49,140 nucleotides of DNA from assembly GCF_004343305.1 (NCBI RefSeq), contig NZ_SMAF01000023.1, positions 1 through 49,140 of the forward strand, written 5' to 3'. Shown here one piece after another: positions 2,742 through 37,443 of this stretch. Both the position numbers and the translations under genes were made by a program. This DNA comes from Pseudofulvimonas gallinarii (GTDB lineage: Bacteria > Pseudomonadota > Gammaproteobacteria > Xanthomonadales > UBA2363). The notes under the pieces were generated by a model. It did not search any database and was not told the origin of the DNA. It saw nothing but the letters and a program-made list of their open reading frames with translations. Position 1 is the first letter of the stretch; each line of letters opens with the position of its first letter.

Positions 2742-3941
2742 TTAGAAGTCGTCGATAAAGAGCAGGTCGACCGGTACCAGGCATTGCTGGTTTTGCGGGT
2801 AGTGGTAGTCGAACCAGATCATGCTGCATGGGGAGAATGCGGTGGCGGGATCGCTGGCGTTGATGCTGGGCCGCATGATGAAATTGTACGAGCAGTTCTG
2901 GGAGACGAATGCCGAGGTGAGTCCTATGGGCAGGCTGATTTGGTTGTCGTGCCGGGCGCCGAAGTTGTGGCCCATCTCGTGCGCGAGAAGGGTGGCGTTG
3001 CTGCCGCCGGAACCGGTCATCTGGTTGACGCCGAATCCTTTTGTGCGGCTGCACAGTCCGTTGATCCACGCGTAGCCGATCACTGCGCCGTCGAAGTCCT
3101 TGCCGCTCAGAAGGTGCGCCAGGCCATGCAGGGGAATGCGCTTGTCATTGACGAAGTCGCCGAACGCATCCAGCAGGTCCGCGTAACTGGTCGTGGTCAG
3201 CGGGCCGTTGTCGGTCAGCGCCAGCAGGTAGTGCAGGCGGATGCGTGTATCGACCTGTGCCGTGTAGAAGCCGTCGACGACATTGAGCGCGGCCAGGGCG
3301 ACGCTGGCGGGCGCGTCGTAGAGGTCCTGGAACTCGGTGTCCATCACCAGCGTCAGCCGCAGCTCCTGGTCCGTGCCACCGCGCACCGGCGACGGCATCC
3401 ACGCGCCCGCTGCAGCTGCATGTGCGGTGTGGTCGGCGGGCGTGTCGCCGTGGAAGTCCAGCGGCTGCGCGAGATCGGCCAGCGTATAGACCAGGGTGGC
3501 GCCGGCATCGACACCGATGCGCGTGGCCAGTTCGCGATGGTGGCTGGCCGGGTCTAGAAACCAGAGTTTTTCGCCGTCGAGGACGGCGCCCAGCCAGGCG
3601 TCGCCGATGCGCGTCAGACGCAGCCAGCTTCCGCTTCGTCCCGCCACGTCACCGGCGAAGACCTGTGTCGTGCCGTCGCGCACCTGCGGCACATGGGCGC
3701 GCGCGTCCTGCATCAGGGCGGTGTGCTCCACTAGCACGAGGTCCAGCAGCTGGCCATCGGGCGTGGCCAATCGCAACACCATTGCCGCTTCGCCATCGCT
3801 GGCTTGTGTACTGTCGACCCGATGCAGGCCGGCATCACTGGCGCGCAGCAACTTTCCGGCGATGGCCGGTGCCGGTGCAACCAGCACGAACGATACGGTG
3901 ACGGCCGCAAGCAGCCTCAGCCCATGTCGGAAAATATGCAT
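2742..3941 (-). CDS. Secreted reprolysin-like zinc metalloprotease (M12-type)
   Basis: A 399-residue exported protease. Residues 1-28 form a signal peptide (MHIFRHGLRLLAAV, cleavage near APAIA). The zinc site is HEMGHNFGARHD (His near 321), the full HExxHxxGxxHD signature of adamalysin/reprolysin-type metzincins, followed by a conserved Met further on (NFIMRPS) that may serve as the Met-turn. The N-terminal 150 or so residues look like a propeptide (TTQVFAGDVAGRSGSWLRL). The start at 3941 was preferred over an upstream TTG because GGGAG sits about 7 bases before it. The C-terminus LLFIDDF is close to the LIFADGFE end of the two beta-helix proteins at 5.6-10.4 kb, suggesting a shared export or anchoring tag. 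It diverges from the transporter gene at 4130; the 188-base gap should hold both promoters. Confidence 0.88.
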   Translation of the reverse strand: MHIFRHGLRLLAAVTVSFVLVAPAPAIAGKLLRASDAGLHRVDSTQASDGEAAMVLRLATPDGQLLDLVLVEHTALMQDARAHVPQVRDGTTQVFAGDVAGRSGSWLRLTRIGDAWLGAVLDGEKLWFLDPASHHRELATRIGVDAGATLVYTLADLAQPLDFHGDTPADHTAHAAAAGAWMPSPVRGGTDQELRLTLVMDTEFQDLYDAPASVALAALNVVDGFYTAQVDTRIRLHYLLALTDNGPLTTTSYADLLDAFGDFVNDKRIPLHGLAHLLSGKDFDGAVIGYAWINGLCSRTKGFGVNQMTGSGGSNATLLAHEMGHNFGARHDNQISLPIGLTSAFVSQNCSYNFIMRPSINASDPATAFSPCSMIWFDYHYPQNQQCLVPVDLLFIDDF

Positions 3942-4129
3942 TGCCAACTCCCTTGTCTCCCCGGTGCCAAGAAAGACGATCCAGACTGGAGATGCAAGTT
4001 GACCGGCAATACGTCATGGACGTTCTGCCTCGAGCGATTACGGGCGGCCGCAGCAGAACGGCATGCGCCGACATCGCCGCCAAGGTAGGCTTGGCCGGCG
4101 ATGCCGCAGCACGATCAGGGAGAGTCCGG

Positions 4130-5542
4130 ATGACGGAACACAGGTCATGGCCGTTGCGTACCGCCTTGCGCTGTGCGGCGTTTGCGGAAAAGTGGTTTCC
4201 CGATGCCTGGGTGTTCGCGGCGCTGGCGTTGGTGCTGGTGGCGTGCATCGCGCTGGCCTTTGGCGCGCCGCCGCAGACGGTGGCGCAAGGTTTCGGCAAG
4301 GGCTTCTGGAGCCTGATCCCGTTCACCATGCAAATGGCCTTCGTGGTTATCGGGGGCTACGTGGTGGCGACGGCGCCGGTGGTGTCGCGCTTGATCGTGC
4401 GCCTGGCGAAGCTGCCGCGAAGTGGTCGCGGCGCCATCGTTTTCGTGGCGACGCTGTCGATGCTCACCTCGCTGCTGAGCTGGGGTTTTTCCCTGGTGTT
4501 CGGCGGTCTGCTGGCGCGGGCGCTGGCGCAGCGCGAAGAGCTGCGCATGGACTACCGCGCTGCCGGTGCCGCCGCCTACCTGGGCCTGGGCGCGGTGTGG
4601 GCGATGGGTCTGTCATCATCGGCGGCACAGTTGCAGGCCAATCCGGCGTCGATGCCGCCGGGCCTGCTGGCGATCACCGGCGTCATTCCCTTCACCCAGA
4701 CCATCTTCCTGTGGCAGTCCATCGCCTTGACCACCGGGTTGATCCTGGTGTCGATCTGGGTGGCCTGGCTGACCGCGCCACAGGGCACGTCGGCACGCAC
4801 GGCGAAGGCGTTCGGTGTCGAAGCCGGATTGATGCAGTCGTCGCTTCCGCCGCGCACGCGCCCGGGCGAGTGGCTGGAGTACAGCCCGTTGTTGACGCTG
4901 CTGATCTCGCTGCTTGCCTTCGGCTGGCTGGCCGGCGAGTTCGTGAGCAAGCCGGCCGCCATCGCCATCGCCGATCTCAATACCTACAACCTGCTGTTCC
5001 TGTCGCTGGGCTTGCTGTTGCATTGGCGTCCGCGCAGCTTCATCGATGCGGTGACGCGGGCGGTGCCGGCCACCAGTGGCGTGCTCATCCAGTTCCCGTT
5101 GTACGGCGGCATCGCCTTCCTGCTGACTCAGGCGCCGGGTGCCGATGGCGAAACGCTTTCACACCGGTTGTCGGAACTGTTCGTCGCCGTCACCACGCAT
5201 GACACCTTCGCCCTGGTGATGGGCAGCTATTCGGCGGTGCTCGGCTTTTTCGTACCATCCGGTGGCGGCAAGTGGATCATCGAGGCGCCGTACGTGATGC
5301 AGGCGGCGAACGATCTGCACTACCACCTGGGCTGGTCGGTGCAGATCTACAACGCCGCCGAGGCACTGCCGAACCTGATCAATCCGTTCTGGATGCTGCC
5401 GCTGCTTGGCGTCATGGGCCTGAAGGCGCGCGACATCGTCGGCTTCACGTTCGTGCAGCTGCTGGTCCACGCGCCGCTGGTGCTGCTGGCGCTGTGGGTG
5501 CTGGGCGGAACGCTCGACTACCTGCCGCCGCAGATGCCGTGA
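4130..5542 (+). CDS. atoE: AtoE-type short-chain fatty acid transporter
   Basis: A 470-residue inner-membrane protein rich in hydrophobic helices along its whole length (about 10-12 segments). It matches the short-chain fatty acid transporter family (AtoE/TIGR00366), seen in the early motif FAEKWFPDAW, in SLLSWGFSLVFGGLLARALA-like segments and in the C-terminal GGGKWIIEAPYV and GWSVQIYNAAEALPNLINPFWMLP. AtoE in Escherichia coli is about 440 residues and works in short-chain fatty acid (butyrate/acetoacetate) uptake. The start at 4130 has an AGGGAGAG ribosome site 5-10 bases upstream; earlier in-frame codons give unrelated sequence. No ato catabolic genes lie nearby, so substrate assignment rests on family only. 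It ends 15 bases from the end of the convergent beta-helix gene, and no clear terminator is visible in the gap. Confidence 0.88.
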   Translation: MTEHRSWPLRTALRCAAFAEKWFPDAWVFAALALVLVACIALAFGAPPQTVAQGFGKGFWSLIPFTMQMAFVVIGGYVVATAPVVSRLIVRLAKLPRSGRGAIVFVATLSMLTSLLSWGFSLVFGGLLARALAQREELRMDYRAAGAAAYLGLGAVWAMGLSSSAAQLQANPASMPPGLLAITGVIPFTQTIFLWQSIALTTGLILVSIWVAWLTAPQGTSARTAKAFGVEAGLMQSSLPPRTRPGEWLEYSPLLTLLISLLAFGWLAGEFVSKPAAIAIADLNTYNLLFLSLGLLLHWRPRSFIDAVTRAVPATSGVLIQFPLYGGIAFLLTQAPGADGETLSHRLSELFVAVTTHDTFALVMGSYSAVLGFFVPSGGGKWIIEAPYVMQAANDLHYHLGWSVQIYNAAEALPNLINPFWMLPLLGVMGLKARDIVGFTFVQLLVHAPLVLLALWVLGGTLDYLPPQMP

Positions 5543-5557
5543 CCCGGTCATCGCGGC

Positions 5558-7912
5558 TTACTCGAAACCATCGGCGAAGATGAGGTCATCCAGCGACTCG
5601 ATCTCCAGGGTGACACCGTCGAAACGGCCAAGAACGCCACCGTTCGGAAAATCGACCGAATCGGTGACGACCGCGTACACGCCCAGCGAAGTGTTGGTGG
5701 TCCATTGTTCGGCGGTGACATCGAAGGTGACTGCCTGCGCCGGCCGATGCCAGGCATTGCCGCTTGTCAGGTCATGGTCACCACTGGCGATCACCGTGCC
5801 GGTGCAGTCCTCGCTGCCGTTCAGCCGAAGTTCCCAGCGCAGTGTCACCTGGTCGGTGAATAGCCCGTGTGACTTGCCCCAGGCATTGAGCGTGTAGCGC
5901 GCCGGGAACGGAAGGTGCACGCACTGTCGGGCGGCGGTGACTCGCGGACTTGCGATATTGCTCACGCTCACCAGCATCGAGCCGGAGCCGGTGCCGCCGC
6001 TGGCGTTCTGCGAACCGTCGCGGCTGATCGCTCCAGGAATCAAGGCTTCCCAGGCGTTGAGGTTGCTGTCGAAGTCGCCGTTGTGTAGCAGCGGCATCAG
6101 TGCCTGGCGTTCCAGGGCGCCGATGTCGCGCGCGGCGCCGACAATCACCGGCAGCCGCTGGTCGCGTGGCAGGCCGAAGACATCGATGTCGTTGCCGGTG
6201 ACCGGCACCGTGGCGTCGACCGCCGGCGAGGCGGCGCGCAGCCGGTAGTCGCCGTTCGCCAGATCGACGAAGCGCGGCGACGCCACCAGCACGTCCGGCG
6301 TGTTGCCGCCGTCCAGCGAGTCGCGCTCGCTGGCGATGATGCGGTCGAAAGTGCCGAACGGACGCTCGCAGCCATTGCATTGCAGGATCGGCTTGCCGGG
6401 CTGCCAGAAGATCGATCGGCTTAGTTGGAAACCGCGTTCGCCGATGGCCAGCATGTGGCTGCCGCCTATCTCGTTGCCGGCCAGGGTCGAGTCGATGATG
6501 CGAAGCCGCAGGTGGTCGTCGTCACCACTGCCGACGTCGATCAGTGCGCCGGTCAGGGTGTTGTCGGCGATCAGCGTGTTCTGAAGGTTTACCTTGCTTT
6601 CATCGCCGGCATGGACAAGGCTGCCGCCCTGGTTGCCTTCAATGAGAACGCCGCCCACACCTGCATGGCCCGAACCGATGACTAGTCTGCCGCTCTCTTC
6701 CACGCGGATGATCGCCCCATTGGTCAGCTGATTGTCGAATGTGGCGGCCCGGTTGTCGCTGATGCTGCCGCAGGGCTGGCCCACCGGGCAGGCATTCGTA
6801 TCGGGCAGCGCGTAGGCGTTGATATCCACATTGCTGCCCCACGGAGAGCCGAGAAAACTATCATGTGCTGCGACATAGATGGCGGCGCCATCGGGGGCCT
6901 GGTTCTCGTTGATCTGGCTGTTCCAGAGCCAGGCGGAGCCCAACGAAAGCCCAGAGGTCGCCGAATTCCAGGAACGGGTATAGAGACCGCCGCCGGCCTG
7001 GGTGGCGGTGTTGCCGCGTATGCGCATCGGGGACTCGGCCGAGGTCATCTGGGTCAGCAGCATTGCATTGCCGACCTCGTCGGTGTCCTGGCTCACAACG
7101 GCCACGCCGCCACCGAAGACGCCGGTATTGGCGAAGATCGTGCCCAGGCTGGTCACGCCCGGGCCGAGGTAGGCGTAGGCATTGAGGTTGCCGCTGCGGA
7201 TCATAAGTCCGCCGCCATAGCCACCGGTCCCGCCCAGGCCTTCGGCGGTGTTCCACATGATCACGCTGCCCGGTTCGCGCATGGCGAACTCCAGCTGGTC
7301 GATGTACACGCCACCGCCGCTGTAACGGGCGGTGTTGTCGCTGACGATGACATTGTTTCCGAACAGCACTTCGGCGGCGATGCCGGTACCACGGGCGAAC
7401 AGTCCGCCGCCATAGCCGGCGCTGTTTTGCGTCAAGGTGGTGTCGGCAATGTCCAGGCGGCCATTGCCCTGGAAGAAGATGCCGCCGCCTTCGCCGTTAC
7501 CGGCAATGTCGCCACCACGGATGAACAGGTTGCGCAGGCGGATCCAGGCACCGCTGGCGCCGAGGATGCGCAACACCGAACGCGCATTGCCGCCGGCACC
7601 GTTGAGGGTGGTGGTGCCGCTGGGCGTTCCCGGCGCGCAGGTGTCGTAGCCGCCGATCAGGTCGAGCTCCTGCGCGGTGTCGATCACCAGTTCCTGCGCC
7701 GTCCAGGTCAGGTTGCGGGCGATGTGGATGCGGTCGGGGCCGGGATTGGTGTGGGCGGCGTTGATCGCCGCCTGGATGGTGCTGTGTGTGCAGCCGGCGC
7801 CGTCGCCCACGCGGTAATCGGCAGCGTCGGCGCTGCCGGCCAGCAGCGGGAGCAGTGTGCCGGCCAGGCCGATCAGGGACGGCAGGCGCGAACGGTTGGA
7901 GGAGATGCACAT
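5558..7912 (-). CDS. Secreted parallel beta-helix protein with choice-of-anchor-Q-like and C-terminal sandwich domains, paralogue 1
   Basis: A 784-residue exported protein. The start at 7912 gives a signal peptide MCISSNRSRLPSLIGLAGTL ending near GSADA; GAGG lies about 10 bases upstream. Residues 30-500 are repetitive, with NSAGYGGGLFARGTG and similar Gly-rich turns plus IxxNTA/ISDN motifs, typical of right-handed beta-helices. Then comes DYRLRAASPAVDA...RDIGALE, the segment known from choice-of-anchor-Q proteins. A Cys-bearing sandwich domain starting NGDFDSNLNAWE resembles carbohydrate-binding modules. The protein ends LIFADGFE. It shares this entire architecture with the neighbour at 8046-10403, so the two arose by tandem duplication. 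Position suggests control by the sigma factor/kinase pair upstream. The ligand is unknown; polysaccharide binding or adhesion is only a guess. Confidence 0.85.
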   Translation of the reverse strand: MCISSNRSRLPSLIGLAGTLLPLLAGSADAADYRVGDGAGCTHSTIQAAINAAHTNPGPDRIHIARNLTWTAQELVIDTAQELDLIGGYDTCAPGTPSGTTTLNGAGGNARSVLRILGASGAWIRLRNLFIRGGDIAGNGEGGGIFFQGNGRLDIADTTLTQNSAGYGGGLFARGTGIAAEVLFGNNVIVSDNTARYSGGGVYIDQLEFAMREPGSVIMWNTAEGLGGTGGYGGGLMIRSGNLNAYAYLGPGVTSLGTIFANTGVFGGGVAVVSQDTDEVGNAMLLTQMTSAESPMRIRGNTATQAGGGLYTRSWNSATSGLSLGSAWLWNSQINENQAPDGAAIYVAAHDSFLGSPWGSNVDINAYALPDTNACPVGQPCGSISDNRAATFDNQLTNGAIIRVEESGRLVIGSGHAGVGGVLIEGNQGGSLVHAGDESKVNLQNTLIADNTLTGALIDVGSGDDDHLRLRIIDSTLAGNEIGGSHMLAIGERGFQLSRSIFWQPGKPILQCNGCERPFGTFDRIIASERDSLDGGNTPDVLVASPRFVDLANGDYRLRAASPAVDATVPVTGNDIDVFGLPRDQRLPVIVGAARDIGALERQALMPLLHNGDFDSNLNAWEALIPGAISRDGSQNASGGTGSGSMLVSVSNIASPRVTAARQCVHLPFPARYTLNAWGKSHGLFTDQVTLRWELRLNGSEDCTGTVIASGDHDLTSGNAWHRPAQAVTFDVTAEQWTTNTSLGVYAVVTDSVDFPNGGVLGRFDGVTLEIESLDDLIFADGFE

Positions 7913-7929
7913 GACGCGAACCTCGAGCG

Positions 7930-7948
7930 GATGACAGGGGCTGTCATC
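7930..7948 (-). promoter_or_regulatory. Stem-loop upstream of beta-helix paralogue 1
   Basis: GATGACAG / CTGTCATC with a 3-base loop is a perfect 8-bp inverted repeat, ending 17 bases before the start codon at 7912. It could be an operator or an RNA hairpin in the leader. No T run follows, so it is not a usual terminator. Confidence 0.5.
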
Positions 7949-8045
7949 TGCGGTAAACGGCGTCACCACCGTGATTGCGATATCGCCGGCCCGTGCCATT
8001 GCGGCGCAGGCCGGCGAAGTGCGTTCGGGTGCTGGAAAAATCCAC

Positions 8046-10403
8046 TCAGTCCGGCCCGGTGTCCTGCTCGAAGTCATCGGCGAAGATGAGATCCAGCGAT
8101 TCAACCTCCAGAGTGATGCCGTCGAACCAGCCACTCACGGCGGGCGGAAAGGTGACGCCGTTGTCGATCACCACCAGCTGGATGTTCAGCGAGCTGGTAT
8201 GGGTCCATGCCGACTCCGGCACTTCGATGCGGGCTGGTGTGGCGGCCGGGGCGAACACGACGCCGTTCGGCAGGAAGTGCTCGCCGCTGGCGTCGGCCTG
8301 GCCGGCATTGCAGCTTTCGCTGCCGCTGTGTCGCAGTTCCCAGCGCAGCAGCACCGAGTCACGGGTGGCGATGTTGGCACTGCTGCGGCCCCAGCCATTG
8401 AGCAGGTAGCGGCCGGGTCCCGGCAGGTGGATGCACTGCGAGCGGGCAGTGACCCGTGGCGCCGGGATGTTGCTCTGGCTGACATGGATCGAGCCCGAGC
8501 CGGGCGTGCCGATACCGTTCTGATCGGAGGTCCATGACGAGGCGCCGGGCGTCACTTCGGTCCAGTGGTTGAGGCGGCCGATGCTGTTGGAGTCGAAATT
8601 GCCATTGTGTACCAGTGGCGCAAGGGCCGGGCGTTCGAACGCGCCCAGGTCGCCGGCGCCGTTGCGGTTGGCCTTGATCGGCAGGTCGATGCCGCGGTCA
8701 GTGCCGACAAGGTCGGGGCCGCCGCCGCTGCCGGCGAAATCGACAGCCGGTGAGGCGGCACGCAGCCGATAATCGGAATTGGCCGGATCAATGAAACGCG
8801 GATTGGTCGCCACCACCCAGGGCGAGTTGCCGCCGTCCAGGGACTGGCGTTCGTTGGCGACGATGTTCTGCGCGAACAGCGGATCGCCCGAATGCGAAAC
8901 CAGAGTCTTGCCGGGCTGCCACAATACCGATCGCTGCACGCGGGTGCGACCGTTGCTGCTGATGGCGTGCGCGGCGCCGATGGCATTGCCGACCAGGGTG
9001 CTGTTCTCGAACAGCAGGTCGACATCGTCTTCGGTACGAATCACCTGTTGGCTGACCTCGTTGTCGGCCCACAGGGTGTTGACCGCCTCGACGGTGGTGT
9101 CGCCGCCAACGGCGCGCACAATGCGTCCGCCCCGGTTGCCCGACAACTCGGTGCGATCCATTATCAGGGTATTGTCGCGATCGACGAACAGGACCGAACC
9201 GCCGGTGGGGTCCCCTGCCAGATCGAGGTCGAAATTGCCGGCAATCCGGCTGCATGGCCGGTCCTGCGGGCAGGGCAGGGCTGCCGGCATGTTGTTGCCA
9301 CTATTGAACATCAAGGCGGAGAAGCCGACCGGAAACAGCCCTGGCGTGCGCGCCAGATAGGCTGCCGCCCCTTCCGGCGCCGAGTTGTCGAGCAGGCTGG
9401 CGTTGTGCAGGCGCGCAACCGCCGCGTGCCCGATGATGAAACCGCCACGGTCTTCGGCCCACAGGTACAGGCCGCCACCGGCCACCGAGGCGAAGTTGTC
9501 GCGGATCGCGGTTTGCCGCTGTGCATCGGTGCTGTAGACGATCAGCCGGGCGCCGGCGTTTTCACTGACCGACATCACCGAGATGCCGCCACCGTAACGC
9601 GCCTCGTTGGCATAGACGGGACCGGCGCCGCCGACGCCCGGGCTGCCGATGTAGGTGTGGCCGTCACGCGCGCCGCCGACGATCTGGATGCCGCCGCCGT
9701 AACCGCCTTGCCACTGCCCGGTGCCGGCGTTGTAGAGGCCGGTGGCCTGGTTGAACGCGATCCAGCTGTCCGGCGCATTCATCGTCATCTCCACGCCGTC
9801 GTTGTAAACGCCACCACCACTCAGGCGCGCGGTGTTGAAATGGATCAGCACATTGTTGCTCAGGATCAGCTCGGCATTGGGACCGGTGCCTTCGGCGTAG
9901 ATGCCGCCGCCGTAGCCGGCGCTGTTGTTGGTGATGGTGGACTCGATGACTTCCAGGATGCCGTCGCCACGGAAGTAAATCCCGCCGCCGTAGCCGGCGC
10001 CATCTTCGTCGCCGCCCTGGATGGTCAGGTGGCGCAGCTTGACGATGCCGCCGGTTCCGGTCGTGATGCGCAGCACCGGTGCCTGGGCGCCACCGGCGCC
10101 GTCGATGATGGTCGGGGTACCGTCAGCCGGCGATTGGTTGCAGGTGGCGAAGCCGCCGACGAGGTTGAGGTGCTGGTTGGTGTTGATGACCAGCGCCTGT
10201 TGCGTCCATGACTGCGTGCGGCTGACACGTACAGTGTCGAAACCGGGATTGAGTTCGGCGGAGTCGATCGCACTCTGGATCGTCGGATGCGTGCAGCCGG
10301 CGCCGCTGCCGACGGTGTAGATGGCGGCGCGGGCGAACGAGGAACACAGCAGCAGTGACAGGGTGATGGGGAGTAGAGGAAACAGCTTTCGGTAATGCAG
10401 CAC
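8046..10403 (-). CDS. Secreted parallel beta-helix protein, paralogue 2
   Basis: A 785-residue paralogue of the protein at 5558-7912 with the same order of parts. A signal peptide (LHYRKLFPLLPITLSLLLCS, cleavage near ARA) is followed by YTVGSGAGCTHPTIQSAI, then Gly-rich beta-helix coils (NNSAGYGGGIYAEGTG), DYRLRAASPAVDFAGSGGG...GDLGAFE, a sandwich domain beginning VHNGNFDSN, and the end LIFADDFEQDTGPD, in which the shared motif is followed by six extra residues. The start is GTG 10403: it opens the signal peptide and has GGAG 7 bases upstream. The open frame extends much further upstream but there overlaps the kinase gene and has no family features. The SD lies at the edge of a 7-bp hairpin (10413-10438). 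The function is unknown; export and surface location are likely. Confidence 0.85.
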   Translation of the reverse strand: MLHYRKLFPLLPITLSLLLCSSFARAAIYTVGSGAGCTHPTIQSAIDSAELNPGFDTVRVSRTQSWTQQALVINTNQHLNLVGGFATCNQSPADGTPTIIDGAGGAQAPVLRITTGTGGIVKLRHLTIQGGDEDGAGYGGGIYFRGDGILEVIESTITNNSAGYGGGIYAEGTGPNAELILSNNVLIHFNTARLSGGGVYNDGVEMTMNAPDSWIAFNQATGLYNAGTGQWQGGYGGGIQIVGGARDGHTYIGSPGVGGAGPVYANEARYGGGISVMSVSENAGARLIVYSTDAQRQTAIRDNFASVAGGGLYLWAEDRGGFIIGHAAVARLHNASLLDNSAPEGAAAYLARTPGLFPVGFSALMFNSGNNMPAALPCPQDRPCSRIAGNFDLDLAGDPTGGSVLFVDRDNTLIMDRTELSGNRGGRIVRAVGGDTTVEAVNTLWADNEVSQQVIRTEDDVDLLFENSTLVGNAIGAAHAISSNGRTRVQRSVLWQPGKTLVSHSGDPLFAQNIVANERQSLDGGNSPWVVATNPRFIDPANSDYRLRAASPAVDFAGSGGGPDLVGTDRGIDLPIKANRNGAGDLGAFERPALAPLVHNGNFDSNSIGRLNHWTEVTPGASSWTSDQNGIGTPGSGSIHVSQSNIPAPRVTARSQCIHLPGPGRYLLNGWGRSSANIATRDSVLLRWELRHSGSESCNAGQADASGEHFLPNGVVFAPAATPARIEVPESAWTHTSSLNIQLVVIDNGVTFPPAVSGWFDGITLEVESLDLIFADDFEQDTGPD

Positions 10404-10536: not shown

Positions 10537-13341
10537 TCAGCCCGCAGCGGGCATGATCGCTTCAAGTGCGGCCGCACGCCGACGCAGCCGCGACGGCGGT
10601 TGCGGCAACGCCTGCAGTGCGGCCTGCGCCTGCGCGAAGGCGAGGCGCGTGGCATCGCTGTCGCCGCCTGCGTGCAGCGCGCTGGCATGCAGTAGCCACC
10701 AGTCGGCACGCTGCAACAGGTCGGCGGCGGCATGCTCGATGGCCGGCCGCGCCGCGTCCAGATGGCGCAGCGCGCTGCCACTGTCGCCCGCGTGCAGCGC
10801 CAGTTCCGCGCGCAACATGTCGGCACGACCGTTCCACCAGCTGTCGACGCGGCTGGCCGATGCCAGTGCCTGGTCGATGCAGTCGGGCATGCCCGCGGCG
10901 GCGGCGTGCCGGGCGCTGTCCAGGGCCAGGCGCGCGAATTTTTCGCAGGCTTCGGCCAGGCCATCGGCATCGTTGCCGATGCGCCGGTAGTCATCGATGG
11001 CCGCCTGCATCTGCGCCAGGCCGGTGTCGACATCGCCGGCCAGTCCGATCGCCATGGCGATGCCGCTGCGGGCGCGGATCGCCAGCGGGTAGTCGCGTCC
11101 GAAGTGGCCGCTGTAGCCGGCATCGGCCCGTTGCAGCCACGACTTTGCAGCGTCGGCCCGTTCCAGCGCCAGCGACAGGAAACCGGCGTTGCTGAACTCG
11201 TTGAAGGTCAGGGGGCTGTCGTCGCCCTGCGCGAGCGTGTTCACGCGCAGTGATTCCAGCGCCACGGACAGCGCCGCTTCGTAATCGTGGCGGTCGCGAT
11301 GCACCATCAGCAGGGCATTGAGGTGCTGCCCGCGGCGCCAGTCATCGGCCCCAAGCACGGCATCGTCGATCGCCAGCGCGCTGCGCGCTTCGCGTTCGGC
11401 GGCATCGAGATCGCCGCTTCGGCGGTAGATGCGCGACAGGTTGGCGTGAACCGCCGCCACCCGCCAATGCTGAAGGCCAAGTTCGTCCTGGCGTGCCGCC
11501 AGCTGCTCTTCCAGTACGCGCGCCGCGGCCGGAAAATCGCCGGACACGAAATGCGCCTGCGCAAGATGGCCGAGCGCTTCGGCGAGCAGCGCCGGATCAT
11601 CCAGCGACCGGGCCAGTTCCGCGGCGCTGCGGGCATCGGCCATACAGCGTTCCAGGTCGCGTTCGCGGATGGCGACGGTGGCCGACTGTCCGAGCACGGC
11701 GGCGCGCAATGCCGCGTCGCCGGGCGCGATGCGTGGCAGCATCTGCGTCATGCGTGCACGGGCTCCGGTTGTCTGGTGCGCCTGCACCTCGGCGCGCAGC
11801 AGTTCCAGTTCGGCCTGCAAGGACAGCTGGCTGTCGGCGCCGCGGTGCCGGGTGATGCCGGCCAGCGCCTCGCCGAGCACCTCCAGTGATTCGTCCAGCA
11901 CGCCCTGTTCGCGCAGCACCACGCCCAGGTGCATCAGCAGTTCGCCGCGCACCGATGGATCAAGGCGCGTGTCGTTGCGTGCCTGCACGATCGCATCGTG
12001 CACGACATCGGTGATGCGCGGCGCGCCTTCGCGCGGCGAGCCCGGTGCCGCCTGCTGGAAGGCGCCGACCATGAAATCGCGCAGGGCGTTGGCACGGCGC
12101 GACTCATGGCGCGCTTCGGCCGCCTGCCAGAGGGCGATGGCGGTGGCGGAAAGGATGGCGGTGAGCAGTGCCAGAGTGGCCACGACGCCACCGCGGTGGC
12201 GTTGCACGAACTTGCGCGTGCGGTACCAGCGTGACGGCGGATGGGCGCGGATCGGCTGCATCGCCAGATGCCGTTCGATGTCGTCGGCCAGCTGGTCGGC
12301 GCCGGCATAGCGGCGTGCCGGCTCTTCCGCCAGCGCCTTGAGCAGGATGGTGTCGAGATCGCCGCGCAGGGCGGCGCGCAGTTGTGGTCGCGCCACCGGC
12401 AGCCGCCACAGGTCGGTGACCAGCTCGTCGACGCGGGCGGAGGCGCGCAACGGTCGCCGCGGATCGGGGCGCTCGCCGAGCAGCAGCTCGTGCAGGATCA
12501 CACCGAGCGCATAGACATCGGTGGCGGTGGTGATGGTGCCGCCCTCGAACTGTTCCGGCGCCGCATAACCCGGAGTGAGTTGCGCGTAGCCGGTGCGGGT
12601 GGCGTCGGCCGGCAGCGCCTGTCCGGCGGCCAGCAGCTTGGCGATGCCGAAATCCAGCAGCTTCACCGTGCCGTCGTTGCTGACCAGGATGTTGGCCGGC
12701 TTGAGGTCGCGGTGCACGATCAGGTTGCGCTGCGCGTGTGCCACCGCGCGGCAGACCACCACCATCATCTGCAGGCGCTCGCGCAGACCCAGTTGCGCCG
12801 CGCAGGCGTGGTCGGTGATCGGGCTGCCATCGACATAGGTGATGACCAGGTAGGCGGTGCCTTCGGCGGTGACGCCGCCGTCGATCAGGTGCGCGATGTT
12901 GGGATGGTCCAGCGCGGCCAGCACCTCGCGTTCGCGGCGGAACTGCCGCTGCGCTTCCGGCGAATGCAGGCCGCGGTGCAACAGCTTGATCGCCGCCTGC
13001 TGCAAGGTGCCCTCGACGTTGCGCGTGGCCCGGAACACCGTCGCCGAGCCGCCGTCGCCCAGGTGTTCGTGCAGTGTCCAGCCGCCGATGCACTGACCGC
13101 TGCCCCAGCCCGGTACGGGCGCATCGCCCAGGGCGTCGGCAAGATCGGGTGCCGACAAGGTGGCCAGCGGATCGCGGCGGTCGTGGTCGGCGGCAAGCAG
13201 CTGCTCGATCTGCCGGCGCATGCGCAGGTCCGGGCAGCAGCTGGCCAGGAAGCCGGCGCGCTGGTGGTCGGGCAGGTCCAGGGCGCGTTCGAACAGGTCG
13301 CGGAGCGAGTCGGCGGAAGTCATGGCGAAGGGAAACGCCAT
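10537..13341 (-). CDS. Membrane-anchored Ser/Thr protein kinase with helical-repeat (TPR-like) sensor half
   Basis: A 934-residue Hanks-type kinase. The cytosolic kinase domain spans about 86-365: glycine loop LGDGGSATVF, Lys 119 in AAIKLL, catalytic HRDLKPAN (210-217), DFG 230-232 and APEQ 261-264, so all key residues are present. A membrane helix follows at about 385-405 (VVATLALLTAILSATAIALW). The remaining 500 residues are Ala/Leu/Arg-rich helix pairs of TPR type, which should lie outside the membrane. ATG 13341 gives MAFPFAMTSADS; ATG 13323 (MTSADSLRDLFERAL) is an equally good start and matches the usual family N-terminus. The gene begins 26 bases after the ECF sigma factor gene, so the two form an operon. 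By family precedent the kinase should regulate that sigma factor, but the phosphorylation target is not shown by sequence. Confidence 0.92.
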   Translation of the reverse strand: MAFPFAMTSADSLRDLFERALDLPDHQRAGFLASCCPDLRMRRQIEQLLAADHDRRDPLATLSAPDLADALGDAPVPGWGSGQCIGGWTLHEHLGDGGSATVFRATRNVEGTLQQAAIKLLHRGLHSPEAQRQFRREREVLAALDHPNIAHLIDGGVTAEGTAYLVITYVDGSPITDHACAAQLGLRERLQMMVVVCRAVAHAQRNLIVHRDLKPANILVSNDGTVKLLDFGIAKLLAAGQALPADATRTGYAQLTPGYAAPEQFEGGTITTATDVYALGVILHELLLGERPDPRRPLRASARVDELVTDLWRLPVARPQLRAALRGDLDTILLKALAEEPARRYAGADQLADDIERHLAMQPIRAHPPSRWYRTRKFVQRHRGGVVATLALLTAILSATAIALWQAAEARHESRRANALRDFMVGAFQQAAPGSPREGAPRITDVVHDAIVQARNDTRLDPSVRGELLMHLGVVLREQGVLDESLEVLGEALAGITRHRGADSQLSLQAELELLRAEVQAHQTTGARARMTQMLPRIAPGDAALRAAVLGQSATVAIRERDLERCMADARSAAELARSLDDPALLAEALGHLAQAHFVSGDFPAAARVLEEQLAARQDELGLQHWRVAAVHANLSRIYRRSGDLDAAEREARSALAIDDAVLGADDWRRGQHLNALLMVHRDRHDYEAALSVALESLRVNTLAQGDDSPLTFNEFSNAGFLSLALERADAAKSWLQRADAGYSGHFGRDYPLAIRARSGIAMAIGLAGDVDTGLAQMQAAIDDYRRIGNDADGLAEACEKFARLALDSARHAAAAGMPDCIDQALASASRVDSWWNGRADMLRAELALHAGDSGSALRHLDAARPAIEHAAADLLQRADWWLLHASALHAGGDSDATRLAFAQAQAALQALPQPPSRLRRRAAALEAIMPAAG

Positions 13342-13367: not shown

Positions 13368-13925
13368 TCAGTCCAGGTTGGTCTTCAGGAAGGCGCGGGC
13401 AAAGCGCCAGTCGCGGTCGACGGTGCGCCGCACGACGCCCAGCACCTCGGCCGTCTGTTCAAGGGTCAGGCCGGCGAAGTACAGCAGTTCGACCACGCGC
13501 GCGGCGCGGGCGTCCTGCGCTTCCAGCCGAGCCAGTGCTTCGTCCAGGGCGATCGCCTTCTCGGCACTGTCGATCGCGAGCTGCTGGTCGATACCGCTGA
13601 GCGTGACGCGCTGCCAGTCACCGCCGGCGCGCAGGCGCAGGCGGTCGCGGGCACGATCCACCAGCAGGTGGCGCATGGCGCGCGAGGCATAGGTGAAGAA
13701 CTGCGCCGGATGCGCGAACTGTTTTTCGCCGGAACCGAGCATGCGCAGGTACAGCTCGTGCACCAGCGCCGTCGTCTGCAGCGTGCCGTCGGCCTGTCCG
13801 GCCAGGCGCTTGCCGGCCATCGCCTTCAGGCGGTCATACACGCTGGCGAACAGCGCATTGGCCGTGTCGGGCGCCAGCGCCGCCGCCTCGCCCTCGTTCC
13901 TGTCCTTGTCTTCCGCCATCGCCAT
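13368..13925 (-). CDS. ECF RNA polymerase sigma factor partnered with a Ser/Thr kinase
   Basis: A 185-residue ECF sigma factor of the TIGR02999 (SigX6-like) group that commonly sits next to TPR kinases. Region 2 is seen in LVHELYLRML and FFTYASRAMRHLLVDRARDR (the -10 binding helix). Region 4 is LTLEQTAEVLGVVRRTVDRDW, the -35 recognition helix-turn-helix. The start at 13925 (MAMAEDKDRN) has GGGAGA 12 bases upstream; ATG 13919 is a possible alternative. No anti-sigma gene is adjacent; the kinase at 10537-13341 follows at once, so phosphorylation by it is the probable control. It reads divergently from the oxidoreductase gene at 14137, with 211 bases between them. Confidence 0.92.
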   Translation of the reverse strand: MAMAEDKDRNEGEAAALAPDTANALFASVYDRLKAMAGKRLAGQADGTLQTTALVHELYLRMLGSGEKQFAHPAQFFTYASRAMRHLLVDRARDRLRLRAGGDWQRVTLSGIDQQLAIDSAEKAIALDEALARLEAQDARAARVVELLYFAGLTLEQTAEVLGVVRRTVDRDWRFARAFLKTNLD

Positions 13926-14136
13926 GGAAAGCGTGGTCTCCCGGCCCCTGCCCGTTGTGAACGTCGACCTAGAATACGCGGAATGGCTGCCGTCCGCGCC
14001 AGCGGCGAGCCGGTCGCGCGGCCGGCGCAGCATCTTCCCCGGCTGCGTCGTCCCCGCGCGGCGCGGCCGGCAAGCGCAGCCGGCCGGTGCAAGGCCGATG
14101 CGGTTACCATGCCGGTGTTTACAGGCGGCCCGACCG

Positions 14137-16395
14137 ATGGACAGCGGAAACAAGCCCTACGACAAACCCGCCGGCGGCATCGACGCGCTGGCCAGCTCGG
14201 TGCGCGCGCTGCGCAAGCAGGGCATCCTCGGCAAGGGCGCGAAGACGATGCTGCGTGCCAACCAGCCGCACGGCTTCGACTGTCCGGGCTGTGCCTGGCC
14301 GGACCGCAATCCGCACTCGACCTTCCAGTTCTGCGAAAACGGGGTCAAGGCGGTGGCGGCCGAGGCGACGGCGCGACGGGCCACGGCGGCATTCTTCGCC
14401 GCGCACACCGTCAGCGAACTGGCAACGTGGTCGGACATGGAACTGGAAGACCAGGGTCGCCTGACCGAGCCGATGCGCTACGACGCCGGCAGCGACCGCT
14501 ACCTGCCGCTGTCCTGGGACGATGCCTTCGCGCTGATCGCCCGCGAGTTGCAGGCGCTGGACGATCCGGACCGCGCGATCTTCTATACCTCGGGACGGAC
14601 ATCGAACGAGGCGGCCTTCCTCTACCAGCTGTTCGTGCGGCAATTCGGCACCAACAACTTCCCCGACTGTTCCAACATGTGCCACGAGCCGACCAGCCAG
14701 GCGATGCCCGAGCAGATCGGCGTCGGCAAGGGCACGGTGACGCTGGCCGATTTCGAGCAGGCGCAGGCGATCTTCATCTTCGGCCAGAACCCCGGCACCA
14801 ACCATCCGCGCATGCTCGGCGAGCTGCGCGAGGCGGCGCGTCGCGGTTGCCGCATCGTCGTCTTCAACCCGCTGCGCGAGCGTGGCCTGGAACGCTTCGC
14901 CGATCCCAAGCATCCGGTGGAGCTGCTCACCGGCAAGGGCACGGCGCTGGCGAGCCATTACTACACCCTGCGCGTGGGCGGCGACCTGGCGGCGGTAAAC
15001 GGGCTGATCAAGGCGGTGCTGGAGGCCGGTGCCGAGGATCGCCAGTTCATCCACGAACACTGCCGCGATTTCGAGCAGCTGGCCGATGCCGTGTCGGCGA
15101 TGTCGTGGCGCGACATCGAGCAGGGCAGTGGCCTGACCGAAGCCGAACTGCGCGAGGCGGCGCAGGTGTACATCGATTCGCCGGCGACGATCGTCTGCTG
15201 GGGCATGGGCATCACCCAGCACCGGCGTTCGGTCGCGACCATCCAGAGCCTGGTCAACCTGCTGCTGCTGCGCGGGAACATCGGGCGGCCGGGCGCCGGT
15301 GCCTGTCCGGTGCGCGGTCATTCCAACGTGCAGGGCGACCGCACGATGGGCATCAACGAGAAGCCGGCAGCGGCATTCCTCGATCGCCTCGGCAGCGAGT
15401 TCGGCTTCGAGCCGCCGCACCGGCATGGCCACGACACCATCGCCGCGATCGAGGCGATGGCCGCCGATCCGGGCACCGTTTTCATTGCGATGGGCGGCAA
15501 TTTCGCCGCCGCCACGCCGGACAGCGCGCGCACGCAGGCGGCACTGCGCAACTGCGCGCTGACGGTGCAGATTTCGACCAAGCTGAATCGGTCGCATGTC
15601 GTCCACGGGCGCGAAGCGCTGATCCTGCCCTGCCTGGGCCGTACCGAAATAGACATGCAGGCCGGCGGCATGCAGGCGGTGACGGTCGAGGATTCGATGA
15701 GCATGGTGCACCGGTCGGCGGGCATGAATCCGCCGGCGTCGCCGTACCTGCTGTCCGAACCGGTGATCGTCGCGCGCATGGCCGCGGCGACGCTGCCGGA
15801 CAGCCGGGTGCCGTGGCTGTGGCTGGTCGAGGACTACGACCGCATCCGCGAGCACATCGGCCACGTCGTCGCCGGCTTCGAGGACTTCAATGCCCGCGTC
15901 TGCGCGCCGGGTGGCTTCCACCTGCGCAACGCCGCCCGCGAGCGCGACTGGAGCGGCATCGGTGGTCGTGCGCGCTTCATCGCGCACGCGCTCGATCCGG
16001 CCGATGCGTCCATGCCGGCACCGGACCTGCTCACGCTGACGACGATCCGCAGCCACGACCAGTACAACACCACCGTCTACGGCCTGCGCGACCGCTATCG
16101 CGGCATCGACGGCGAGCGCCGCGTGCTGTTCATCGCCGCGGCCGACCTGGCGCGTCTGGATCTCGTCGCCGGGCAGCAGGTCGATATCGTTTCGGTCTGG
16201 GATGACGGCGAGCGCGTGGCGCCGTCGTTCAAGCTGGTCGAGTACGACATCCCGGCCGGGTGCGTGGCCGCGTATTACCCCGAGACGAACGTGCTGGTGC
16301 CTTTGGGCCACCACGCCGATCGCGCAAGGACGCCGGCGAGCAAGTCCATTCCGGTGCGCCTGCGTGCCGCGACGGACGCAGTCGCCGCGCCGTGA
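14137..16395 (+). CDS. FdhF/YdeP-like molybdopterin oxidoreductase
   Basis: A 752-residue molybdopterin-dependent oxidoreductase of the TIGR01701 (YdeP/formate dehydrogenase alpha-like) family. The N-terminus has GFDCPGCAWPD (Cys 49 and 52), the reduced cysteine pattern typical of this subgroup rather than a full four-Cys iron-sulfur motif. The motif NMCHEPTSQAM places Cys 182 as the expected molybdenum ligand, where FdhF has selenocysteine. GGNFAAATPD, TKLNRSHVVHG and the C-terminal RSHDQYNTTVYG segment of the molydopterin dinucleotide-binding domain are all present. No signal peptide is present, so it is cytosolic. The start at 14137 was chosen from the conserved GGIDALASSVRALRKQG stretch. 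It overlaps fdhD by GTGA, so the maturation factor is co-translated. The reaction is uncertain: YdeP of Escherichia coli is tied to acid resistance, not proven formate oxidation. Confidence 0.9.
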   Translation: MDSGNKPYDKPAGGIDALASSVRALRKQGILGKGAKTMLRANQPHGFDCPGCAWPDRNPHSTFQFCENGVKAVAAEATARRATAAFFAAHTVSELATWSDMELEDQGRLTEPMRYDAGSDRYLPLSWDDAFALIARELQALDDPDRAIFYTSGRTSNEAAFLYQLFVRQFGTNNFPDCSNMCHEPTSQAMPEQIGVGKGTVTLADFEQAQAIFIFGQNPGTNHPRMLGELREAARRGCRIVVFNPLRERGLERFADPKHPVELLTGKGTALASHYYTLRVGGDLAAVNGLIKAVLEAGAEDRQFIHEHCRDFEQLADAVSAMSWRDIEQGSGLTEAELREAAQVYIDSPATIVCWGMGITQHRRSVATIQSLVNLLLLRGNIGRPGAGACPVRGHSNVQGDRTMGINEKPAAAFLDRLGSEFGFEPPHRHGHDTIAAIEAMAADPGTVFIAMGGNFAAATPDSARTQAALRNCALTVQISTKLNRSHVVHGREALILPCLGRTEIDMQAGGMQAVTVEDSMSMVHRSAGMNPPASPYLLSEPVIVARMAAATLPDSRVPWLWLVEDYDRIREHIGHVVAGFEDFNARVCAPGGFHLRNAARERDWSGIGGRARFIAHALDPADASMPAPDLLTLTTIRSHDQYNTTVYGLRDRYRGIDGERRVLFIAAADLARLDLVAGQQVDIVSVWDDGERVAPSFKLVEYDIPAGCVAAYYPETNVLVPLGHHADRARTPASKSIPVRLRAATDAVAAP

Positions 16396-17213: not shown

Positions 17214-17963
17214 CTACTGGAACACCGTGTCGGAGCCCGGCTTGCTCACCACCTCGAAGCCGTCATACAGGATGTGGTCGCCCACGAACACGTTCTGGTC
17301 GGCGACGATGCCGTGGATCGCCCAGGCCCGCGGATGCGGAACCGAACCGACCGCGTTGCCCAGGGCGACATCCCACGCCAGGAAGGCGGGCCCCGGAGAA
17401 TTGAACAAATGACTGCCCGCCACGCCGTCGCTGGCGATGTCCGCCAATGCGCCGGCGGTGAAGGCGCAGCAGTCCGCCGTGCCCGACGTCGACAGGCCGG
17501 TCACCTGGCCGGTGCCCGGGTTGATCCACAGCAGTCGGGTCTCGTTGGCGCCCTCCTGCCGACCCTGCGCCAGAAGGCGTCCGCTGCCTTCGTCGAAGTG
17601 GAGGTTGGAGAGGGCGTAGCCCGCCACCGGCACGTTGGCCAGGACGCTGCCCGCCGCCAGTGAAAACGTCAGCAGGCGTTGCCCGCTTCCATCATCTCCC
17701 AGGACATGCCATTGGCCGCGGCGCGGGTGCAGGCCGTGTGCGCCGGGCACCAGGCCCAGGTCCGCGGGCAGGAGCGCGCCGAGCACCGTGACCGTCCCGG
17801 TCGTGCTGGAAATATGGACAAGGCGGCGGTCGCCGTCGCTGTCGCGGGCGATGGCGTAGAGGCGGTTCTGCAGCCGGTTCCAGGCGGCGGCGAGCACCTG
17901 CCAGCCGGCACCGACGGTGACACGGCCGACCAGCGCACCGCTGACCGCGCTGATGCGTACCAC
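17214..17963 (-). pseudogene. N-terminally truncated beta-propeller-like protein
   Basis: A 249-residue frame from GTG 17963 with repeats such as LVHISSTTGTVTVLGAL, LLWINPGTGQVTGLS and ISAVSGALVGRVTV, which look like blades of a WD/NHL-type propeller. The coding frame runs on upstream without a stop to about 18125, with plausible sequence (LTFDPAQAETLLVQQAAGDHE), but I find no ATG or GTG there. Neither version has a signal peptide. The upstream part of the frame overlaps the end of the AraC gene (stop at 18086). The likeliest reading is a gene that lost its start and signal sequence by a deletion next to the AraC gene. A DGFE string also occurs here (ILYDGFEVV), 17 residues from the end, as in the tails of the window's secreted proteins. 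The family is not recognised. Confidence 0.55.
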
Positions 17964-23650: not shown

Positions 23651-23786
23651 GCGCGCCCTGGATTGACCGCGCCGCGCCCGGGAGGGCGGCCGGCTGTGTG
23701 CGTACGTGCGGCAGCGGACGGCCCGGGCAGCGGCCACACGCTACACTCCCGGCAGCAGGCCGGATGGTTCCGGCAGCAGGGACACG

Positions 23787-28661: not shown

Positions 28662-29894
28662 ATGTCGCCTCGGTCCACCCGCCATCCATCGTCGCCTGTG
28701 CGGATCCCGGCCGTGCCGCACGGCCGGCGCCAGAGGCGGAGCCGTGCCTGGCTGCTGGTCGTGCTCGGCTGGTTCATGCTGGCCACGCTCGGTGTCGCCG
28801 AGCGCCGCGAGCATCCGGTCGGGCGCGCGCATGCGGCCTACAGCGACGACAGCCGCCAGGACTGGAATGACCCGACGCGACCGCGTCCGCTGTCGGCGAC
28901 GGTGTGGTATCCGGCCGCCCGCGACAGCAGGGAGCAGCCCTGGCAGGCCGGCGTCTTCGAGTTCGGCATGATCGCACCGGATGCGCCGATGCCTGCCGGC
29001 GTCGGGCGCCTGCCGCTGGTCCTGGTGTCGCACGGCACCGGCGGTTCGGCGCCGCAGCTTTCGTGGCTGGCCGAAGCGCTGGCCGGGCAGGGTTTCCTGG
29101 TTGCGGGCGTGAACCATCACGGCAACACCGCCGCCGAAGCACGGACACTGGTCGCCGGTTTCACGCTGTGGTGGGAACGCGCCCGCGATGTCAGCGTGCT
29201 GCTGGACCGGCTGCTGGCGGATCCGCGTTTCGCCGACCTGATCGATCCGGATCGCATCGGCGTCGCCGGATTCTCCATCGGCGGTTTCACTGCGATGCTG
29301 CTCGCCGGCGCGCGCGTCGATCTCGACGCCTTCCATGCCCATTGCCGTGAACACAGCGGCGACCACACCTGCCGGCCGCCGCCGGAATCGGCCCAGACCG
29401 AGGAGGATTTCCAGCGCTTCCTGGCCGGCGACCGGCGCGCGCTGGCGTCGCTGCGCACGGCCGCGGACAGCTACCGCGACCCCCGTGTGCGCGCCGCCTT
29501 CGTGATGGCGCCGGCGTTGATGCCGGCGCTCTCCGACGAAAGCCTGCGCGGGCTCGACCTGCCCGTGCAGGTGGTGACGGGCGCCGCCGACACGCTCGTC
29601 CTGCCCGGATTCGTCCAGGCGCTGGCGCGGCGCATGGACCGCGTCGATATCGACACCCTGCCGGGTGTCGGCCACTACGCCTTCCTGGCGCCCTGCAATG
29701 ACGCCGGCGTCGAGCAGCTGGCGCGGTTCTGCGTCGATGCGCCGGGCATCGACCGTCGCCAACTGCACCATCGCGTCGCGGCCCACGCCGTGGCCTTTTT
29801 CAAACGCCAGCTCTGCCAGGCGCATCGCAATGATGCTGCGGCCGGGACGGCGTCCGACACCCACGAGGAGGTGGATCCATGTTCGACACCCTGA
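28662..29894 (+). CDS. Predicted exported alpha/beta hydrolase (dienelactone/PAF-hydrolase-like)
   Basis: A 410-residue alpha/beta hydrolase. A hydrophobic N-terminal segment (AWLLVVLGWFMLATLGVA, about 28-46) may be a signal anchor. The nucleophile is Ser 205 in GVAGFSIGGFT, the oxyanion strand is LVLVSHGTGG, and the His is probably in LPGVGHYAF. The Asp is likely in VTGAADTLV. The early SATVWYPA motif and a lid-like central insert resemble the platelet-activating-factor acetylhydrolase/dienelactone group. Its stop overlaps the next permease start by 16 bases, so it belongs to the operon. A hydrolase inside a MacAB-like locus may process or detoxify the exported compound; that link is inferred from position only. 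Confidence 0.82.
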   Translation: MSPRSTRHPSSPVRIPAVPHGRRQRRSRAWLLVVLGWFMLATLGVAERREHPVGRAHAAYSDDSRQDWNDPTRPRPLSATVWYPAARDSREQPWQAGVFEFGMIAPDAPMPAGVGRLPLVLVSHGTGGSAPQLSWLAEALAGQGFLVAGVNHHGNTAAEARTLVAGFTLWWERARDVSVLLDRLLADPRFADLIDPDRIGVAGFSIGGFTAMLLAGARVDLDAFHAHCREHSGDHTCRPPPESAQTEEDFQRFLAGDRRALASLRTAADSYRDPRVRAAFVMAPALMPALSDESLRGLDLPVQVVTGAADTLVLPGFVQALARRMDRVDIDTLPGVGHYAFLAPCNDAGVEQLARFCVDAPGIDRRQLHHRVAAHAVAFFKRQLCQAHRNDAAAGTASDTHEEVDPCSTP

Positions 29895-32362: not shown

Positions 32363-32374
32363 GGAAATCCGCCG

Positions 32375-32428
32375 ATGTCCTTCACCGCCTTCCAGCGCGA
32401 CCTCCGCTACGCCCTGCGCAACGAATGA
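32375..32428 (+). pseudogene. 17-codon relic of a MacB-like permease start
   Basis: MSFTAFQRDLRYALRNE is the typical first segment of this permease family (FQRDLRYALR before the first helix), preceded by AAGGAAATCCGCCG as a ribosome site, but a stop follows where the membrane helix should begin. It sits 12 bases after permease 1 and its stop overlaps an in-frame ATG of permease 2 at 32425. The next gene starts 24 bases later. This looks like the leftover 5' end of a lost permease; it could act as a leader peptide for the next gene. Confidence 0.6.
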
Positions 32429-32451
32429 CACCGTCTTCCTGGAGAACCGAC

Positions 32452-34854: not shown

Positions 34855-34877
34855 CAACAACCGGAACGGATTTCCCG

Positions 34878-37310: not shown

Positions 37311-37364
37311 CAACGCCGAAGACCCGTGATAGTCGGGCCCGGGCCGGGCCCGTCGTGAAGCGGT

Positions 37365-37405
37365 GGATGTCCGCGCCTGACGCAAGGTGCCGTGGTCGGA
37401 CATCC
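37365..37405 (+). promoter_or_regulatory. Inverted repeat GGATGTCCG / CGGACATCC upstream of permease 4
   Basis: A perfect 9-bp inverted repeat (37365-37373, 37397-37405) with a 23-base centre. Its half-sites include TGTCC and GGACA, as in the dyad at 26402, but the spacing differs. It lies 39 bases upstream of a second sigma-54-like box. Confidence 0.4.
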
Positions 37406-37443
37406 GGCTACCGCGCACATCGCGCAAGGGCGCGCGTGCAACC

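Follow-up and report, generated by a model that had tools for sequence, protein, structure and literature searches.

Why should exported proteins with different folds end in the same few residues? The question is raised by a 49,140-nucleotide stretch of the Pseudofulvimonas gallinarii genome (contig NZ_SMAF01000023.1, positions 1 to 49,140; hereafter the window), in which two beta-helix-like proteins, a metalloprotease and a propeller-like fragment carry, at or close to their C-termini, a short tail with the consensus D-x-[I/L]-F-x-D-G-F-E. A first-pass annotation, made from the DNA alone, had taken this common end for a sorting, secretion or anchoring signal. Here we report that the tail is genuine, that it marks the C-termini of exported proteins throughout a lineage, that it is very likely a sorting signal, and that a second type II secretion system (T2SS) is the most likely candidate for its reader.

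A common tail in the window and its genome

The four ends named by the first-pass annotation all read as it had given them (Table 1). One beta-helix-like protein ends DDLIFADGFE and stops; the other ends DLIFADDFE with six further residues; the metalloprotease ends DLLFIDDF; and the propeller fragment ends DHILYDGFE-VVSKPGSDTVFQ and stops, with L in place of the first F. Judged from their sequences, the metalloprotease and propeller-fragment ends are variants of the tail on the two beta-helix-like proteins. No further such end was found in the window when the last 30 residues of every open reading frame (ORF) of at least 120 amino acids were searched with a loose pattern. In a structure model of the window beta-helix protein, built on an input of only three sequences, residues 774-784 have a predicted local distance difference test score (pLDDT) below 50, which is in keeping with a free tail.

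Across the 3.45-Mb genome to which the window belongs, a DNA pattern for FxD[G/D/E]FE (TTYNNNGAYGRNTTYGAR) has 43 matches and the reversed-pattern control none, which excludes chance. Of these copies, 38 lie within 20 residues of a stop codon; the corresponding counts for two congeners are 32 of 33 and 28 of 30. With 98 of 106 matches near C-termini in the three congeneric genomes, the motif does not sit at random positions, an outcome that would have counted against the first-pass annotation. The 38 C-terminal copies in the window genome have D at position -3 in 34 cases, I or L at position -1 in every case and A between F and D in 27; the motif closes as DGFE in 32 and as DDFE in six. Between 0 and 10 free residues follow; beyond the window genome up to 18 residues may follow the E within the order (L082). 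The 38 copies are encoded by 28 different 18-mers, which indicates that the signal is one of the protein, as opposed to a repeat in the DNA. In 35 congener pairs (reciprocal pairs only, both partners bearing, and hence selected for, the motif) the nine tag residues are identical at a fraction of 0.89, compared with 0.73 for the rest of the domain and 0.59 for the residues after E.

The eight non-C-terminal matches in the three congeners are of several kinds. That in L008, which has no signal peptide, looks like a chance match; those in L234 and L181 fall in the same protein in two genomes, which we take to be RlmN; L057 and L199 are internal, L035 directly follows a signal peptide and the remaining two form a doublet within one protein (L038). 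In L057, 164 residues follow the tag; in L199, where the fetched piece ends soon afterwards, at least 77 do. By eye the two stretches may be alike. Tandem double tags occur in L133 (FADGFEGSDDLFSDGFE and then stop), L145, L246 and L038. A tag placed directly after the signal peptide was seen at L035:6693 and in L144 (Thermoanaerobaculia), that is, in two different phyla.

The tagged proteins share their tail and an export signal

When 66 of the 98 tagged proteins were aligned, many orthologues and one fragment having been removed by hand, a single common stretch emerged, D..FADGFE; some of the aligned members are paralogues. The Pfam matches of these 66 (E <=0.001) include beta-helix (11), subtilase (S8; 6), FG-GAP (4), DUF11 (4) and MauG-like (2) families, together with one each of M14, M64, GSDH, multicopper oxidase and CotH; their NCBIfam matches (E <=0.01) include choice-of-anchor Q (13), CSLREA (8), rhombotarget A (6), choice-of-anchor D (3) and NxxGxxAF (3). 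This spread of families confirms for the wider set that the carriers have different folds, as had been proposed for the window. Choice-of-anchor families elsewhere carry one of several anchors, and in the tagged members, as far as their sequences can tell, the tail stands in the place where the anchor would be.

Signal peptides and further membrane helices were scored with a home-made heuristic. By this score 84 of the 98 tagged ORFs have a signal peptide, some of the others being cut by contig or fetch ends. At the tag loci of the window genome the enrichment that the first-pass annotation called for is present, with a signal peptide and no further membrane helix scored for 23 of 29 tagged and 34 of 102 untagged ORFs (p 1.3e-5); in a relative, the same combination was scored for 7/7 tagged and 70/248 untagged ORFs (p 1.9e-4). 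By these home-made scores the tagged proteins thus have the Sec signal peptide without a further membrane helix that is expected of T2SS cargo. Taken together, the C-terminal placement and the signal-peptide enrichment support the reading of the common end as a sorting or secretion signal.

The tag is widespread in one order and recurs outside it

Among 150 genomes of the order Lysobacterales/Xanthomonadales, 60 have at least 10 matches, with a maximum of 79; in total there are 2107 matches and 148 for the control, which gives at most 5 per genome. The DG form reaches at most 7 matches in each of 272 genomes from other orders of the class. Whole-genome counts for named organisms, in which not all matches were checked for position and controls give at most 6, are 74 for Chiayiivirga flava (G081, the genome of L068), 41 for Wenzhouxiangella sp. 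XN79A (G049, the genome of L112), 31 for Tahibacter harae and 28 for Dokdonella fugitiva. G081 and G049 were matched to their loci, and the order thereby named, through the identical positions of their matches. A scan of named loci, which required D at position -3, returned at least 118 loci; among those listed, C-terminal tags occur in Dokdonella, Tahibacter, Chiayiivirga, Wenzhouxiangella, Marinicella and many metagenome-assembled genomes (MAGs) of Lysobacterales, and many other matches are internal or chance-like. One locus, L074, comes from an Alcanivoracaceae MAG (G440) with 17 matches, though it is labelled as another order; it may be mislabelled or represent a separate tag-bearing lineage.

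A longer C-terminal form was seen, among the loci listed, in Thermoanaerobaculia and some other MAGs. It reads DxIFxDGFESGDTxAWSxxxP followed by a stop codon, with G two residues and W seven residues past the E in all of 18 tails hand-picked by label and look. Eight Thermoanaerobaculia-type genomes, counted with the same limits, have 72-185 matches each: five MAGs labelled Thermoanaerobaculia or Thermoanaerobaculales (72, 82, 120, 153 and 185), Acidobacteriota OFTM27 (103), an unlabelled MAG (107) and a MAG labelled Deltaproteobacteria (131). A second Deltaproteobacteria MAG with one long tail has 4 matches only.

In one genus the tag has changed as a set

The GSDH family, to which one tagged protein belongs, allows the tail to be followed across genomes. 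Its homologues carry a tag-like tail in 23 of 27 readable loci, after exclusion of three of the 30 loci that gave a wrong frame. In a genus that is poor in DGFE (g9), four of four GSDH homologues end in DRFE. The change extends beyond this family: 13 of 15 g9 genomes have 11-83 matches to FxD[R/S]FE, with FxD[G/D/E]FE at 1-8, and G129, of a genus neighbouring g9, has 42 of the former with the latter likewise at 1-8; in other genera of the same family the counts are 1-12 for FxD[R/S]FE and 11-41 for the usual form. The 11 C-terminal F.D.FE copies in an evenly spread 400-kb sample from a g9 genome are without exception DRFE; eight of the nine with their N-terminal end in view score as signal-peptide proteins, the ninth being a 61-residue fragment, and three internal F.D.FE matches look like chance. 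In the corresponding sample from G090, an untagged genome, there is one match near a C-terminus, in an ORF without a signal peptide. Many unlinked genes in g9 have changed the same residue together, as would be expected of a tag whose reader changes, and a switch of this concerted kind suggests that the tags have a single reader in common.

The GSDH family itself follows the tag. Of the 150 genomes, 74 are tag-rich when both patterns are considered, and 72 of these have the family, as do 13 of the 76 tag-poor ones; within the 29 genomes used for the GspD comparison described below, it was found in 16/16 tagged and 1/13 untagged genomes (G058).

A second T2SS as candidate reader

The genomes for the GspD and rhombosortase comparisons were hand-picked, for high or low tag counts or for named loci, before any GspD result; two of them (G010 and G027) had first been grouped as tag-poor and were re-read as DRFE-tagged ahead of the GspD tree. 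T2SS in general was rejected as a separator of tagged from untagged genomes, since GspD scores over cut-off in 16/16 tagged and 11/13 untagged genomes of the order and one GspD clade alone separates them. In a tree of 51 proteins (every over-cut-off hit in the test genomes, one hit below cut-off and one Pseudomonas protein, with frames chosen by similarity), this clade, clade A (support 0.994), has a member in 16/16 tagged and 1/13 untagged genomes, again G058, whereas the second clade is present in 16/16 and 11/13. The co-occurrence of clade A and tag gives a Fisher p of 2.5e-7, for genomes that are not independent. When six distant Thermoanaerobaculia-type secretins were added, the support for clade A was 0.997 and the secretins formed a group of their own (0.964) on the clade-A side of the midpoint root.

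A clade-A operon was read in a g9 genome (G035, stretch L309), with gspC at 3948-4841, gspD at 4841-6754, gspE at 6747-8222 and gspF at 8230-9423. Its GspC combines a T2SSC domain with a PDZ domain at the C-terminus (PDZ_6, E 4e-7), and of the chains with solved structures those of OutC and PulC match it best, in their PDZ parts. C-terminal peptides are frequent ligands of PDZ domains, and for this reason the PDZ domain of GspC is the first suspect for the reader, the N-terminal domains of GspD being the second. The PDZ domain of EpsC is required for secretion of VesB and captures a chimera bearing the VesB Ig domain (PMC12369372). We do not rely on two further observations: a regular expression for the GspC PDZ end upstream of gspD matched 9 of 17 clade-A and none of 30 clade-B loci, many of which offer scant upstream view, and the GspD changes specific to g9 include three acidic sites among 35 unique ones, which are not evidence by themselves.

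Based on these observations, we propose the following model. Cargo would cross the inner membrane through Sec and fold in the periplasm, where the folded protein would expose its short end tail. One common receptor would read this tail, and the tag would in this way recruit the folded cargo to the second T2SS, with its own GspD clade and a GspC with a PDZ domain. Binding of the tag by the T2SS would fall to the PDZ domain of GspC or to the N-terminal domains of GspD, and the cargo would afterwards be released or held at the cell surface. On balance we favour the general part of this model, in which the tail serves as a portable sorting tag at the C-terminus and the common receptor is most likely the second T2SS with its own GspD clade. 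The specific part, in which a nine-residue linear tag is bound by the GspC PDZ domain (or the GspD N-terminal domains) of a T2SS dedicated to it, and tag and receptor change together such that the g9 pocket reads DRFE, is put forward as a tentative suggestion.

Several observations weigh against this model. None of the eight Thermoanaerobaculia-type genomes, all of them tag-rich, has a GspD over cut-off (0/8); their secretin hits are all distant ones (8/8). The absences of clade A and tag amount to about two independent events (eight untagged f2 genomes and four of f11), and ancestry or lifestyle could therefore explain the co-occurrence. G058 has a clade-A GspD and no tag by either pattern; possibly it carries unseen tag variants, since relatives in its family end ANGFE, QNGFE, ASDFE and similar. 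The window genome has its two gspD copies on contigs C8 and C3, apart from the window on C23, which leaves the T2SS reading without support from gene neighbourhood, and a GspC with its PDZ domain was read whole in one genome only. Four of the 27 readable GSDH homologues, from tag-rich genomes, lack the tag, and ten of the 13 tag-poor genomes with GSDH belong to one family, f7, which is mostly tag-poor. FxD[R/S]FE also occurs beyond g9: G004, G005, G015 and G032 (families f3 and f4) have 21-34 such matches beside 38-79 of the other form, and those in G004 are mostly DSFE among the matches listed. Finally, the tags that are not C-terminal, whether after a signal peptide (L035, L144), internal (L057, L199) or double (L038), would be unexpected for a reader of strict C-terminal ends.

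Alternative explanations

The tag might instead be read by some other machine for surface attachment or processing, with the second T2SS as a lifestyle companion or an upstream step common to exoproteins. Many tagged proteins belong to choice-of-anchor Q, choice-of-anchor D and CSLREA families, which elsewhere stand beside other anchors; six of the 66 resemble rhombotarget A, a GlyGly-CTERM protein; eight tag-rich genomes do without a GspD over cut-off; and the distribution of clade A would be shared by any gene whose losses fell in f2 and f11. We nevertheless judge this explanation unlikely, as the tail has no membrane helix and as tandem and N-terminal tags suit binding better than cutting. 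The first-pass annotation had also called for a test for a co-occurring processing gene: no co-occurring protease was found (of the known ones rhombosortase alone was searched for, exosortase and sortase were not), and a secretion machine co-occurs instead. Rhombosortase (TIGR03902) was rejected, with scores over cut-off in three of 40 handles, or 38 different genomes (G434 and G437 being the same genomes as G081 and G049), of which one, G430, is tag-rich. Rhomboid-like hits under its cut-off are present in most genomes, and some other rhomboid is therefore possible.

That the tail is the eroded beginning of a beta-sandwich domain, dispersed by domain shuffling and without signal function, seems to us improbable. 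Lectin-like domains of Anaerolineae (L131, L091) do start DxIF[SA]DGFE[SA]GNL[SA]AW, close to the longer tail, and in Foldseek the predicted domain resembles alginate lyases and lectins with low confidence, on the basis of one model with a mean pLDDT of 65.7 and a tag part below 50; a sequence search of the PDB on this origin gave two weak, unrelated matches only. Relics, however, would decay singly, whereas tens of copies per genome share an end point, follow signal peptides and, in one genus, change together. The start of such a lectin-like domain may still be the evolutionary origin of the tag. We find it scarcely credible that the tag belongs to the pairs of Ser/Thr kinase and extracytoplasmic function (ECF) sigma factor that lie beside tagged genes, for example as a ligand of the tetratricopeptide repeat (TPR) part of the kinase. 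Kinases are indeed the commonest family among untagged neighbours (16 proteins in 12 locus groups), and one lies beside the beta-helix genes of the window. In the window genome, however, 6 of 30 kinases (31 hits less one under cut-off) lie within 7 kb of a tag where 3.7 are expected (P 0.15), as do 5 of 22 sigma genes where 2.7 are expected (P 0.12). A kinase or sigma link was rejected on these counts, with closeness to tags at about chance level. Across the 150 genomes the TIGR02999 counts (at most 20 each among the matches listed) seemingly do not follow the tag counts, by eye.

Features of the window

The tags, their carriers and the kinase and sigma genes of the window are collected in Table 1. 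The beta-helix ORF at 5558..7912 has Pfam Beta_helix and NCBIfam choice-of-anchor Q matches, both slightly under their cut-offs.

Table 1. Tagged genes, tags and regulatory genes in the window (window coordinates)
Feature	Position	Strand	Basis or remark
C-terminal tag DLIFADGFE, abutting the stop codon	5561..5587	-	Window sequence
Tagged beta-helix-like protein with signal peptide	5558..7912	-	Likely signal-peptide Met at 7912
C-terminal tag DLIFADDFE, then QDTGPD and stop	8067..8093	-	Window sequence
Tagged beta-helix-like protein with signal peptide	8046..10403	-	Paralogue of the 5558..7912 protein, 43% identity
Variant tag DLLFIDDF at the stop codon, without final E	2745..2768	-	Window sequence
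Reprolysin-type metalloprotease with variant tag	2742..3947	-	PF13688, E 3e-18
Variant tag DHILYDGFE, 12 residues ahead of the stop	17253..17279	-	Window sequence
Propeller-like fragment with variant tag	17214..17963	-	DUF6923, E 0.0036, under cut-off
Ser/Thr kinases with TPR parts and ECF sigma factors	10537-13341, 13368-14153, 23706-26357, 46601-47338	-, -, +, +	

The window genome holds about 30 such kinases and 22 sigma hits. Special ECF sigma factors with an adjoining kinase gene also lie beside tagged genes at L045:2220-6402 and L049:4557-8043, both in the window genome, and at L089 and L107; the two in the window genome score only 24-30 bits with PF07638. Elsewhere in the window, at 29879-42361 (+), four consecutive genes encode MacB_PCD/FtsX permeases of about 800 amino acids each (starting at 29879, 32425, 34878 and 37496). 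The 796-amino-acid ORF at 39971 (+), 3' of these four genes, has no Pfam match.

Comparison with known systems

A curated model of the tag would be expected to match most of the 66 full proteins and to head the list of their families, and no such model does so in Pfam or NCBIfam (best 25 of 57 and best 25 of 63 families). The window proteins have no NCBIfam match over the tail at E <=1, and ten 80-residue ends with the longer tag gave none over the tag at E <=10. Searches of the literature on the motif letters or the topic found no description of it. Like the tripartite CTERM signals, the tag is a signature motif near the C-terminus of signal-peptide proteins. In those signals a transmembrane helix follows the motif, whereas the 0-10 residues that follow the E in the 38 window-genome copies are too few for a helix. 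Without a membrane helix or, as judged by eye, a basic tail, the tag is not a PEP-CTERM, LPXTG, GlyGly-CTERM or MYXO-CTERM signal. The type IX secretion signal of Bacteroidota is a folded C-terminal domain of some 70-100 residues; it resembles the tag in being C-terminal and common to many exported proteins and differs in that the tag is nine residues long.

GlyGly-CTERM resembles the tag in being a C-terminal suffix, of sporadic distribution, on otherwise unrelated signal-peptide proteins of one genome (PMC3237569), and its carrier VesB leaves the cell by the T2SS in Vibrio (PMC13393428). In contrast to GlyGly-CTERM, the tag has no transmembrane helix and no basic end, it reaches up to 79 matches per genome in the order where PMC3237569 gives up to 13 members, and just one tag-rich genome scores over cut-off with the rhombosortase model. 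The MYXO-CTERM/myxosortase system likewise places dozens of tagged exported proteins in a genome, and T2SS-mediated surface sorting has been predicted for it (PMC11980579). Its signal, from the same source, is a cysteine motif with a helix and arginines, and the tag has none of the three.

Whatever its reader, the tag makes it possible to identify, from sequence alone, tens of exported proteins in a genome and perhaps well above 100 in Thermoanaerobaculia-type genomes. For the T2SS itself, PMC10128026 treats substrate recognition as unresolved, the substrates having no sequence in common, and according to PMC12369372 there is no linear universal signal. If the tag is a T2SS signal, a nine-residue peptide, a matched DGFE/DRFE variant and a matched secretin clade would make recognition directly testable. 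The composite T2SS signals, for example that of Pel3 or the Ig domain of VesB with the PDZ domain of GspC, are alike in that exposed flexible segments or a cargo domain engage the T2SS, including the GspC PDZ domain (PMC7949064, PMC12369372). By the same accounts those signals lie over loops or a folded domain and are specific to the protein, whereas the tag would be one linear peptide common to many.

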